Origin: Pseudomonas saliphila
GTDB lineage: Bacteria; Pseudomonadota; Gammaproteobacteria; Pseudomonadales; Pseudomonadaceae
Direction of reading: 5' to 3'
Length of the DNA stretch: 64,000 nt
NCBI RefSeq assembly: GCF_008638345.1
Contig: NZ_VTVA01000003.1
Coordinates: 95,007-159,006 of the forward strand
Both the position numbers and the translations under genes were made by a program. Shown here piece after piece: positions 33,821 through 37,725 of this stretch. Positions within the stretch are counted from its first letter, which is position 1. Each line of letters starts with the position of its first letter. The notes below the pieces were generated by a model, which was not told where the DNA came from, made no database searches, and saw only the letters and a program-made list of their open reading frames with translations.

Positions 33821-35536
33821 TCAGTAAACGTCGTGCTGCGTGTTATGCACATTGAATTTGCCGGTTGGGGTAATCAGGCGCTTGTCCTTGATTACGTGCT
33901 TCAGCTCCAATGTTTTGTCATCTACTACGACGATTGCTGATTGTTCTTCCTGTCCGCTCCAAACCGAGAACCAGACTTCGTCGCCAGCCTCATTATACTC
34001 AGGCTGAACCACACGCTTGGCGCCATCGGTCACGCCTGCCCACTCGGCAATTGGCAGTACCTTGTAGCCAGCACCAAAGTTCTGGATGTCGAATACCGCC
34101 ACCGATTGACTGATTTTCTCGTCTGGATTGAAGGTGGTATCCAGATACAGGTGCTGAGACTTCGGATGGGTCTTGATGAACAGCGAACCGCCACCCTGAC
34201 CTTTCAGTGTATCGACCACTTTCCAGGCCTGGTCAGGATGATCCTCAGGATCGGTGCCGATCAGGGAAATAGTCGCATCGCCCAGGTGGCTGGTTGCCCA
34301 GACCGGACCAAATTCTGGATGGACGAAGTTGGCGCCACGACCTGGATGCGGGGTTTTGCCTACATCGACCAGGGCGGTCATCTTACGGTCCTTCGAATCG
34401 ATTACCGCCACTTTGTTGGAGTTGTTCGCAGCCGTCATGAAGTAACGGTGACTGACATCCCAGCCACCGTCATGCAGGAACGGCGCGGTTCCGATCATAG
34501 TGGTAGTCAGGTTTTCGATGTCCTCGTAATTGACCAGCAACACCTTGCCGGTTTCCTTGACGTTGACAATGAACTCCGGGTGTTCGTGGGAGGCGATAAT
34601 CGCCGCCACGCGTGGCTCAGGATGATATTCCTGGGTGCCAACGACCATGCCGCGCGTCGATACAATTTTCAGTGGCTCCAGCGTCTCGCCATCCATGATG
34701 GTGTACTGCGGTGGCCAGTAATCGCCGGCGATGACGTACTTGTCCTCGTAGCCTTTGAACTTGGACGTTTCAACCGAACGCGCCTCGATGCCGACCTTGA
34801 TTTCGGCAACCTTGGTAGGTTCCTTGGCCCACAGGTCAATCATATCGATTCGAGCATCACGTCCAATCACCAGCAGGTATCGCCCGGATGCGGACATGCG
34901 CGAGATATGCACAGCGTAGCCGGTCTCGATAGTCTTGATGATTTCCTTGCTCTTACCATCAATCAGAGCGATTTTGCCGTCGTCGCGCAGGGTGACCGAG
35001 AACAGGTTGCCCAGATCCAGCTTGTTCATCTGTTTAGTCGGACGATCCTCAGGCTTGACCAGCACTTTCCAGGATTCGCGCATATCTGCCATGCCCCACT
35101 CCGGCGGCACTGGCGGCGCGTGTTGGATATAGCTCGCCATGATCCTGATTTCGTCCTCGGTCAGTTCACCGGAAGACCCCCAGTTCGGCATGCCTGCGGG
35201 GGAGCCGTAGGAAATCAGGGCCTGCAGATATGCCTGACCACGCTCCTGAGTGATATCGGGTGTCAGCGGCTTGCCGGTCGCGCCTTTGCGCAGCACACCG
35301 TGACAACCCGCGCAACGCTCGAAGTACGTCTTCTGAGCGTACTCAAATTCTTCTTCGGTAAGGTCCGGTGCACCGGGCGACCGAACTATCCCGACCGCAG
35401 CTGCATCAACTTCCGACGGCCCACCTTGATAGGCGGAGGCCGGGTCTTCGGCCTGCGGAACAGCGTGGGCCATTATCGAAGCGTTCAACAACAACGCACC
35501 AATAGCCAATGCCAACGGATGTTTTTTGATAAACAT
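33821..35536 (-). CDS. nirS: Cytochrome cd1 nitrite reductase
   Basis: 571 residues from [10 protein letters not shown] (GAGGG seven bases upstream). A signal peptide is followed by a cytochrome c domain (CAGCH at 75-79) and an eight-bladed propeller that holds heme d1. The propeller carries ASHEHPEF and [11 protein letters not shown], the histidine-rich parts of the active site, and ends [16 protein letters not shown], all as in P. stutzeri NirS. It reduces nitrite to nitric oxide in the periplasm. It is NirS, not the NirN/NirF paralogues. It follows a TonB receptor and lacks nirMCFDLGHJEN neighbours. Confidence 0.96.
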
Positions 35537-35606
35537 GATTAATCCCTCAACTTGCTTCATCGAAATGGCAACGAGCTCTGACTACGACTGCTGCCGTGTT
35601 ATTCGC

Positions 35607-37652
35607 TCAGAATTGGAAAGTTGCTTCCAGATCTGCGTAGCGCTGCGCGCCGGGAATTTCATCCAGCGGTCGATACTCCCGGTTTAGCAGATTGCCCAGC
35701 AACAGGCTAACGCTGACCCGCTCCTGATAATCAATTTTCCAGTTCAGGTTAAGCGTTGCGAAGCCGCCCGCCTGATCGGTTATCTGTCCGAGGTTATCCT
35801 CACGCTTTGCCCCTTCGGCGGCCCGCATATACAGGTCCACCTCACTGAACAGGCCAGCGTTGAGCGTCGAAAAATGTCGCAGACCCAGGGTGCCGCTGGC
35901 TTCAGGCAGACCACTGTGGCGCGTTGAGCTGTGATTCCCGAAACGGAACGTCCGGCGTGTCAGGTTGATGGAGGCATGGGGCTTCACCGGCAGCTCTCCA
36001 CGCCATTCCAGGGCCACTTCCAGACCGTGGGTACGGGCCTCATCAACGTTCACGTATTGCCACTGTCGCAGGCGCGAGGAACTCGGCGGCAAGAAACCCT
36101 CCGGCGTAGCCGATAACAGGCTACGGTCGATATAGTCCTTGGCATCCGTGCGGTACAGCGCGACGTCCAGCGAGGCCAACGCCGACTCATGGCGCACGCC
36201 CAGTTCGACGGTACGCGCCAGTTCTGGTTTGAGCTCAGCGTTACCGTAGTGCACCTCGCTGCCACCGGTAGCGACCGAGAAGAGCTGGGTCAGCGTCGGA
36301 TAGGAGTAGCCACCGGCGAAGGTTCCGCGCACCGACCAGTTGCTGTCCAGCTGATGCACCAGGCCGAGCGAACCCAGCCAGCGCTCATCCCGGCTGTCTG
36401 TTTCGCTGCGGTCGGTACTGCGATTGAGGTCCGACTCGACCACGTAATACCGCCCGCCCAGATGGCCGATCCAGTCCGGCGCGAACTGCCAGCGCTGCTG
36501 CACAAACGCCGAAAACGTGTTTTGCTCCGCGTCCTGCACAGAGCTGCGCGACGTGTTTCTCGGAGGTCCAAAAGGCGGCGATACGGTGGTTGCCGTCTGT
36601 TTGTCTGCATTGAGCTGATCCTGCATGTATTCAACGCCAGCCAGAGTCGGCTGATTAGCAAACAGGTCCATCTCGGCTTTCAGCGCCAGCCCGCGGGTGC
36701 GCAGATCGTCTACTGCCACGTTGTCTACTGCGATTGAGGGAAAGCCACTGACCTCCACACTGTTGGTGAAAGTACGGTCAACCTGACGATGAAATCCATC
36801 AAGCGACAGTCGAGTGAGCCAATCCGTTACCGCCTCGGCCTGATAGAAGAATGCATAGCGGGTCTGATCGCGCTGCGGAAACTCCAGGGTCAAGCGCTCG
36901 CCAGGAACTGGATCAATCCAGGTATTGGCCGCGAGATTGAACTGCTCCGCCTTCAGCACCAACTGTTGATTAGCCCAGCGGTAGCCCAGATGAGCGCTGA
37001 CGGATTCATTGTCGTAATCGGAATGATCCAGGGTGCCGTCCGGCGTACGCCGATCGCCATGCTCGCTACGCGACAGAGCAAGCCTGTAATCGAAGCCGTT
37101 CATGCTTCCCCCGAGACCGGCGGAGCTTCTGTAGCCCTGGGTCGCCGAGTAATAGCCAGCACCCGCGTGGCCCTCCAGAGGCTTGTCACCGCCGCCCCGG
37201 GTGATGATGTTTACTACGCCGCCAATGGCATTCGAGCCATTGATCACGGATGACGGCCCGCGGATGACCTCGATCCTGTCGATCATTGCTGGATCAATAA
37301 GCAATGGCGTGCCATAGGTGGAATGATCAGTGAGAGCCTGTCCGTCAATCTGGATAGCGACCCGCCGGCTGCTCTCACCGCGGATGGAGATACGCTTCAT
37401 ACCGGGGGTGTCGGAATCAGCCAGCGTGACGCCAGGGATATCGCGGAACAACTCCGCAGCATCAGCCACAGGCTCACGTTCGATATCATAGCGGTCAAGC
37501 CGCGTGACACTCGCCGGGCTCAGCAGCAACGACTCACGCATGCCGGTGGCGGTAATGATGCTGGGCTCAAGCTCCAAAGCCTGCTCAGCAAAAACGCCAG
37601 GCGTAGCAAGCAGCGCAGAGACTGTTGCCAATAATGCTGGTCGTTTATTCAT
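35607..37652 (-). CDS. TonB-dependent outer membrane receptor
   Basis: 681 residues from MNKRPALL (GGAG six bases upstream). A signal peptide (about 1-22) is followed by a TonB-box-like stretch (SIITATG), a plug domain (about 35-145: LFRDIPGVTLAD, IRGESSRRVAIQIDG, IEVIRGPSSVINGSNAIGG) and a 22-strand barrel ending in FQF. The SYPTLTQLF...GNAELKPE pair with a histidine between resembles the FRAP/NPNL part of heme receptors, so heme or a related tetrapyrrole is a candidate ligand. Another ligand such as a copper chelate cannot be excluded. It lies 70 bases upstream of nirS, same direction. Confidence 0.9.
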   Translation of the reverse strand: MNKRPALLATVSALLATPGVFAEQALELEPSIITATGMRESLLLSPASVTRLDRYDIEREPVADAAELFRDIPGVTLADSDTPGMKRISIRGESSRRVAIQIDGQALTDHSTYGTPLLIDPAMIDRIEVIRGPSSVINGSNAIGGVVNIITRGGGDKPLEGHAGAGYYSATQGYRSSAGLGGSMNGFDYRLALSRSEHGDRRTPDGTLDHSDYDNESVSAHLGYRWANQQLVLKAEQFNLAANTWIDPVPGERLTLEFPQRDQTRYAFFYQAEAVTDWLTRLSLDGFHRQVDRTFTNSVEVSGFPSIAVDNVAVDDLRTRGLALKAEMDLFANQPTLAGVEYMQDQLNADKQTATTVSPPFGPPRNTSRSSVQDAEQNTFSAFVQQRWQFAPDWIGHLGGRYYVVESDLNRSTDRSETDSRDERWLGSLGLVHQLDSNWSVRGTFAGGYSYPTLTQLFSVATGGSEVHYGNAELKPELARTVELGVRHESALASLDVALYRTDAKDYIDRSLLSATPEGFLPPSSSRLRQWQYVNVDEARTHGLEVALEWRGELPVKPHASINLTRRTFRFGNHSSTRHSGLPEASGTLGLRHFSTLNAGLFSEVDLYMRAAEGAKREDNLGQITDQAGGFATLNLNWKIDYQERVSVSLLLGNLLNREYRPLDEIPGAQRYADLEATFQF

Positions 37653-37684
37653 CAACCACTCCATCGGTGTACTTTATGACTGAC

Positions 37685-37725
37685 AGTATGGTCAATCAGG
37701 AGTAGGACATCTTGATCACGGTCAA
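37685..37725 (-). promoter_or_regulatory. Anr/Dnr box and -10 element of the TonB receptor-nirS unit
   Basis: TTGATCACGGTCAA (37712-37725; on the minus strand TTGACCGTGATCAA) matches TTGAT-N4-ATCAA at nine of ten positions. A CATACT -10-like hexamer on the minus strand (37685-37690) puts the start of transcription near 37678, and the box centre about 41 bases upstream, as in class II FNR promoters. The receptor ATG is 26 bases further on. Confidence 0.8.

Follow-up and report, generated by a model that had tools for sequence, protein, structure and literature searches.

The stretch of Pseudomonas saliphila DNA analysed here (64,000 nucleotides, hereafter the window; C23:95007-159006 in an assembly of 4.37 Mb and 59 contigs reported as 100% complete) carries a gene pair on its minus strand, in which a gene for a TonB-dependent receptor comes first and nirS, encoding the cytochrome cd1 nitrite reductase NirS, follows directly downstream. 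The closest named relative of this genome is Halopseudomonas pelagia CL-AP6, with 85% identity in the receptor and 90% in NirS. The pair and its flanking signals are:

37712..37725, no strand assigned: Anr/Dnr (FNR-type) box TTGATCACGGTCAA before the receptor, with 1 mismatch to TTGAT-N4-ATCAA
35607..37664, minus strand: TonB-dependent receptor of 685 aa with Plug and barrel domains, heme-receptor-like, proposed outer-membrane importer of heme d1 or a d1 precursor
33821..35560, minus strand: nirS, cytochrome cd1 nitrite reductase precursor of 579 aa (Cytochrom_D1, 533 bits)
33748..33769, minus strand: intrinsic-terminator-like hairpin after nirS, with stem and T run visible

The original prediction, made from the letters of the window, had described a receptor upstream of nirS in the same direction, a good Anr/Dnr box before it and a terminator after nirS. 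This arrangement was borne out, with a single mismatch in the box and a terminator-like hairpin and T run in the expected place. The predicted 70-base gap between the genes applies with a later methionine (MFIKKHPL) as the start of NirS; measured to the earliest ATG in frame with nirS, it is 46 bases. A search of 33600-38300 yielded no sigma-70-like promoter.

The receptor is a TonB-dependent receptor by its Plug (PF07715, 85.7 bits) and barrel (PF00593, 136 bits) domains, both above cut-off. Its best NCBIfam matches are the heme/hemoglobin receptor families TIGR01785 and TIGR01786, to neither of which it belongs by score (198 against a cut-off of 316.85 and 201.4 against 323.75). The comparison with heme and copper receptors proposed beforehand came out for the heme type; a copper receptor was rejected, since TIGR01778 gave 66.6 bits, well below its cut-off of 472. 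Among solved structures, the predicted model of the receptor (pLDDT 81; fold matches spanning residues 31-685) was nearest to PhuR by Foldseek and to ChuA by VIA-align. The fold search left the ligand classes tied, with Z-scores of 35.1 for ChuA, 34.6 for BtuB and 34.3 for Cir, and PqqU also appeared among the close folds. The original prediction had leaned on FRAP/NPNL-like segments. The FRAP...His...NPNL loop, which we take to be the heme-receptor motif, is degenerate in the window protein, which reads YPTL...HYGNAEL instead, and the loop histidine is replaced by Phe or Asn in the orthologues of G004, G164 and G149. We therefore rejected the motif as proof of a heme receptor; the assignment to the heme type was right in direction, given that most of the nearest relatives of the receptor lie in heme-uptake loci.

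The window NirS matches the solved nitrite reductase 5guw, presumably the P. aeruginosa enzyme, with 1017 bits. Its c-heme motif CAGCH occupies residues 83-87, and His218, His363 and His405 align with the d1-ligand and active-site histidines of P. aeruginosa NirS, which we take to be His182, His327 and His369 with a numbering offset of 25. The roles of these three residues are given in PMC8756737. With its c-heme and d1 domains and conserved ligands, the protein is a cytochrome cd1 NirS.

The original prediction held that the genes for heme d1 synthesis were absent or remote. They are remote: a cluster, nirNEJHGLD / nirCF, lies on the same contig at C23:44469-51959, about 77 kb from nirS (C23:128830-130566). 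Missing d1 genes in the window genome were thus rejected, by the very finding that the prediction had named as evidence against itself. NirN, NirE (SUMT), NirJ and four NirDLGH-type genes stand on one strand, and a NirC-like protein, a small cytochrome c, and NirF on the other. NirJ scored above cut-off (646 bits), as did two of the four decarboxylase-type genes against AhbB, and NirF and NirN matched Cytochrom_D1 with 367 and 407 bits; with NirE, NirD/L/G/H, NirJ, NirF, NirN and NirC all present, this is a heme d1 biosynthesis cluster. In quick maximum-likelihood trees, built without bootstraps, NirJ of five other Halopseudomonas and ten other Pseudomonadaceae formed one clade (SH-aLRT 100) without the window NirJ, and the NirF tree likewise placed the window NirF outside Pseudomonadaceae. 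The window NirS grouped with H. pelagia NirS (99), next to 14 Pseudomonadaceae NirS (97). Because NirF and NirJ fall outside the family and NirS inside it, the d1 cluster was probably gained by horizontal transfer from outside the family.

We surveyed 37 Halopseudomonas genomes, taking NirS above 520 bits as canonical and an E-value of 1e-60 for the receptor; G066 was taken as H. pelagia, G144 as H. formosensis, G004 as Pseudomonas sp. MYb185 and G164 as H. xiamenensis. A genome was called d1-lacking if it had neither NirJ nor NirDLGH above cut-off and neither NirF nor NirN (no second Cytochrom_D1 match above 32 bits); NirE lay outside the set searched in relatives. Canonical NirS was found in ten genomes, the receptor in eight, and NirJ and NirDLGH-type genes above cut-off in six each. 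Half of the NirS carriers (5/10) had no NirJ, NirDLGH, NirF or NirN, and in four of these five the receptor adjoins nirS: G066 (99% complete), G144 (99%), G149 (100%, one contig) and G148 (92%, 350 contigs). The fifth, G159 (92%, 510 contigs), has a contig that ends inside nirS. NirS, receptor and d1 genes occur together in G000, G004 and G164, and NirS with d1 genes and no receptor in G119 and G134. Wherever receptor and NirS coexist in the genus (7/7), the receptor gene immediately precedes nirS in the same orientation, and in G144, G148 and G149 nirQ and nor genes stand beside the pair. For the window organism, which has its own cofactor genes, the earlier interpretation was strictly wrong, but the guess that the receptor may bring in heme d1 gains support from relatives that keep the pair while all of the d1 genes looked for are missing. 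A ferritin-like gene of G144 (L048 8552-9022, plus strand) runs convergent to nirS on the side opposite the receptor.

Across the class we examined 369 genomes (E-values of 1e-100 for NirS, 1e-120 for NirJ, 1e-20 for NirDLGH and 1e-50 for Cytochrom_D1). NirS was present in 68, seven of them without NirJ. Four of the seven (G331, G490, G496 and G506; 94-99% complete and from four different families) had no NirDLGH match, and their sole Cytochrom_D1 match was NirS itself. The remaining three were rejected as d1-lacking and counted as d1-positive, since other d1 genes are present: nirF and nirC beside nirS in G173, nirCFDLGH followed by a contig end in G341, and NirDLGH with NirF on another contig in G477. 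A heme-receptor-like TonB receptor stands immediately beside nirS in all four d1-lacking genomes, upstream in G331 and G490, downstream in G506 and convergent in G496. With a 69-sequence receptor profile, no TonB receptor was found within about 5 kb around the best nirS in any of the 63 d1-positive genomes other than the window's, where both flanks reached at least 4 kb in 41/63 and a flank fell below 1.5 kb in L252, L262, L275, L280, L281 and L286; none was found around seven second nirS copies of d1-positive genomes either. Among 64 d1-positive NirS genomes, the window genome is therefore the only one with a TonB receptor beside nirS. The association between d1 loss and a receptor beside nirS gave a Fisher p of 1.3e-6 (6.1e-6 when the window genome is included among the d1-positive carriers); both values overstate independence because the four d1-lacking NirS form one clade.

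The combination that we propose as the mark of a heme d1 receptor, a place beside nirS in a genome without d1 synthesis, was found in 4/4 genomes of the class and 4/5 of the genus, and the receptor also occurs in the d1-positive G000, G004, G164 and G074. In the family sample, 26 of 29 nirS loci (flanks of up to 1.5 kb) had no TonB receptor, the other three being Halopseudomonas. Plasmid-borne nirS appeared in 37 records, and of the five inspected, four had adjacent d1 genes and stretches without an annotated TonB receptor. The fifth, plasmid pTfr153 of Thiothrix fructosivorans (L311, 8001-9539 and 13819-15759), carries nirS and likely norCB with no d1 gene annotated in the 17.5 kb inspected, and an annotated TonB-dependent receptor lies about 4.3 kb away.

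The kinship of the receptors, judged from a quick tree with long branches, points to heme uptake. One clade (support 99) unites the eight nir/nor-linked Halopseudomonas receptors, and a sister clade of nine rows (99) joins it at 91. Seven of these nine, from Billgrantia, Halomonas, Marinobacter and an alphaproteobacterial metagenome-assembled genome (MAG), lie in loci with heme ABC, HutW or HutX genes, as recognised by profiles for L060, L061, L062 and L066 and by likeness of the neighbours for the remainder. The relatives found next to such genes are about 40% identical to the window receptor. Eight plasmid records hold relatives at 34-40% identity; two of the three inspected were heme loci, and the Cereibacter and Paracoccus plasmid relatives adjoin hutW and hutX. 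On plasmid pORIO2 of Cereibacter azotoformans, the relative belongs to a heme-uptake locus (L307 4891-17242; hutW, hutX, heme ABC), and the next few kb downstream hold an NnrS-family gene and another TonB receptor. The 11 columns that separate the eight nir/nor-linked receptors from seven heme-locus relatives contained no obvious metal ligand.

The receptors of G331, G490, G496 and G506 form a separate clade (97), with 31-33% identity to the window receptor over 186-241 residues. Two of them exceed the TIGR01786 cut-off of 323.75 (361.2 and 371.5 bits), and one matches PhuR over its length with 292.6 bits. Their sisters (100), from two Arenicella assemblies and a gammaproteobacterial MAG, are accompanied by importer genes and a CREG/PNPOx protein that presumably resembles HugZ of heme utilisation. 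Plasmid relatives of the G490 receptor numbered 16 records at 28-33% identity, and the one inspected was a heme locus. Both nirS-linked clades group, each in its own place, with receptors from loci for heme uptake, so that a heme-type receptor was apparently recruited to nirS on two separate occasions. This second, distantly related clade beside nirS in class genomes without d1 genes lends further support to the scavenging of heme d1 that the original prediction had suggested.

All eight Halopseudomonas orthologues of the receptor are preceded, at a distance of no more than 77 bases (71 in G148), by an Anr/Dnr-type box with two mismatches or fewer; in five of the eight the box has at most one mismatch. 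Random 100-base stretches of the same loci contained such boxes in 182/3200 and 36/3200 cases, respectively. No box with at most one mismatch was found in the 250 bases before nirS at any of the six loci tested. The nirS starts of G506 and G496 were guessed, and G496 showed no box.

The NirS proteins of d1-lacking genomes look functional, judging from their conservation. The c-heme motif and the three aligned histidines are kept in 8/8 d1-lacking and 89/89 d1-positive NirS, and pairwise dN/dS among the four d1-lacking Halopseudomonas NirS is 0.05-0.12, values that include the time before d1 loss. The d1-lacking NirS of the class (L215, L218, L219 and L220, from G331, G490, G496 and G506) carry an extra N-terminal cytochrome c domain, and a C1-C2-NirS order is called unique to Chloroflexi in PMC8756737. 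Near nirS in G331 is a COX1-family protein (217 bits; no NCBIfam match) that could be an unusual NO reductase. According to PMC3694632, NirN can transfer d1 to NirS in vitro, active NirS is still obtained after deletion of nirN, E. coli produces NirS in the semi-apo form, and P. stutzeri NirS with a synthetic d1 precursor retained about half of its activity; reconstitution of the apoenzyme with heme d1 appears among the titles it cites. By the semi-apo NirS, the active nirN deletion and the in vitro transfer reported there, NirS can acquire d1 without the whole maturation set.

We consider it fairly likely that the receptor serves NirS by bringing heme d1, or a late precursor, into the periplasm. 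This reading builds on the gene pair, the common box, the lack in relatives of the d1 genes looked for, the conserved catalytic residues and the kinship with heme receptors; we infer the ligand, its delivery to NirS, the presence of d1 outside cells and co-transcription. The receptor and nirS would constitute a two-gene unit that an Anr/Dnr-type regulator induces jointly when oxygen is low. The importer, a descendant of receptors for heme uptake, would be driven by TonB energy. Lysed or leaky denitrifiers in the surroundings would release its substrate, heme d1 or a late precursor (dihydroheme d1, for example), which would pass through it into the periplasm, and the cofactor would bind semi-apo NirS there. 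An inner-membrane transporter would not be needed because NirS matures and works in the periplasm, and none was recognised beside the pair. This route would be the sole source of d1 in at least three Halopseudomonas species, and in the window organism the receptor would work beside a d1 cluster apparently acquired later from outside the family.

Several observations weigh against this proposal. The window genome itself carries d1 genes, and three NirS-positive Halopseudomonas have receptor and d1 genes together, so that within the genus the association between receptor and d1 loss is not significant (4/4 versus 3/5, Fisher p 0.44). In G074, which has a d1 cluster and whose sole NirS, encoded at another place, is a divergent one (44%), the orthologous receptor (L049 8745-10889) adjoins nirQ-norCB, so the receptor is not strictly tied to canonical nirS. 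The four d1-lacking NirS of the class form one clade (support 92), and a phylogenetic pair test had four pairs only, with two to three in the same direction, none opposite and a median p of 0.25; independent d1 losses are thus few (sign test p 0.25 or more). L223 (G159, contig end), L225 (G074, divergent NirS) and three Pseudomonadaceae rows without d1 state received no state in this test, and duplicate Halopseudomonas rows were set aside (five named, four present). The d1-gene absences rest on drafts except in G149, and unassembled plasmids are possible. Around two of the nine sister-clade receptors (G034 and G065), and around the next receptor pair after the sister clade (Thiopseudomonas-like), no heme-uptake genes were seen by eye.

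The receptor could instead be an ordinary heme b or hemoglobin receptor under Anr/Dnr control, feeding heme or iron to the hemes of denitrification (NirS, NorBC, cytochromes c), with the link to d1 loss coincidental. Heme receptors are the best profiles and folds for the window protein, most sister-clade receptors are found in heme-uptake loci, together with HutW or HutX and an ABC importer, the G074 receptor stands next to nirQ-norCB in a genome without canonical nirS, and a ferritin-like gene flanks nirS in G144. HemS (PF05171) cuts both ways. Its presence in G148, G004 and G164 means that some receptor carriers may use heme iron, whereas none was found in G000, G066, G144 and G149, genomes in which other heme-degrading families were not searched, and this is mild evidence against the usual use of heme iron in them. 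Beside nirS-linked receptors, neither a heme ABC importer nor a gene for heme degradation was recognised, by eye on lists of open reading frames and partly by profile. An ordinary heme receptor also leaves unexplained why adjacency outside the genus occurs only in d1-lacking genomes (4/4 versus 0/63), and we regard this explanation as possible but doubtful.

We find it improbable that the d1-lacking NirS no longer reduces nitrite, being in decay or carrying another heme for another job, with a receptor that is unrelated or supplies that heme. A non-denitrifying use of NirS has been raised for Chloroflexi in PMC8756737, and the H. pelagia genome paper (PMC3764420) contains no word starting with nitr-. 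Yet the frames are open, the d1 ligands are kept in 8/8 with low pairwise dN/dS, nirQ and nor genes adjoin the pair in G144, G148 and G149, and the box is retained before the receptor. Import of another tetrapyrrole, siroheme or a cobalamin relative, which would be converted to d1 or used elsewhere, seems very improbable. NirDLGH and NirJ act after siroheme, and the d1-lacking genomes are without these as well. In favour of such an import are the fold tie with BtuB and the passage of the d1 route through siroheme (PMC4063343).

On balance, we lean slightly towards a dedicated outer-membrane uptake of heme d1 that arose from heme receptors on at least two occasions and would free NirS denitrifiers from synthesizing d1 themselves, with the window organism later regaining synthesis by transfer. 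No report of heme d1 uptake was found among the matches listed for open PMC texts, a scope that leaves out subscription papers and bioRxiv preprints. Heme d1 is regarded as made and used within one cell, and nirS is a widely used marker of denitrifiers. If some bacteria with NirS obtain d1 from others, nirS alone would not signify self-sufficient nitrite reduction. Denitrification could rest on the exchange of a cofactor, some nitrite respirers would depend on cofactor released by their neighbours, and there would be a simple route to losing the long d1 pathway. A tetrapyrrole would also be added to the known ligands of TonB receptors. Cultured H. pelagia and H. formosensis would allow direct testing.

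Other features surround the pair in the window. Two open reading frames on the opposite strand, 37865-38218 (+) and 38313-39386 (+), adjoin the receptor and have no Pfam or NCBIfam match at an E-value of 0.001. A TGAAT pentanucleotide repeat of 5.8 copies (39384-39412), which could be phase-variable, closely precedes a sugar-kinase-like frame, named by eye (39461-40405, +). At a distance of about 6 kb from nirS, an NahK/ErcS-like hybrid histidine kinase (26375-28171, -; near_NosP_CTERM with 284 bits, below the cut-off of 400) is adjoined by a NarL-like response regulator (25741-26385, +), also below cut-offs.

Among known systems, PhuR, ChuA/ShuA and HasR share the Plug-barrel fold with the window receptor and give its best profile and fold matches. 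The window receptor differs from PhuR, ChuA and HasR in scoring below the curated cut-offs, in its degenerate FRAP/NPNL segment, in the Anr/Dnr-type box before it and in adjoining nirS rather than a recognised heme ABC importer. BtuB for vitamin B12 and PqqU for PQQ, both among the close folds, import, as the window receptor would, a finished cofactor for an enzyme and not iron, and PqqU serves periplasmic enzymes. The cofactor proposed here is heme d1 for the periplasmic NirS, and the window receptor, unlike these two, belongs with the heme receptors. The canonical nir operon of Pseudomonas and Stutzerimonas has the order nirSMCFDLGHJEN. A list of the nir genes of PAO1 is found in PMC8756737. 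The window genome has the same NirS and, about 77 kb away, the same cofactor genes, but its nirS is separated from them and paired with the receptor, and the d1 cluster is divergent and, by the NirF and NirJ trees, not of Pseudomonadaceae. Finally, the Chloroflexi C1-C2-NirS described in PMC8756737 resembles the four d1-lacking NirS of the class in domain order, through an extra N-terminal cytochrome c domain. Here the architecture occurs in the class of the window, where that paper reports none, and the genes lie beside a TonB receptor.

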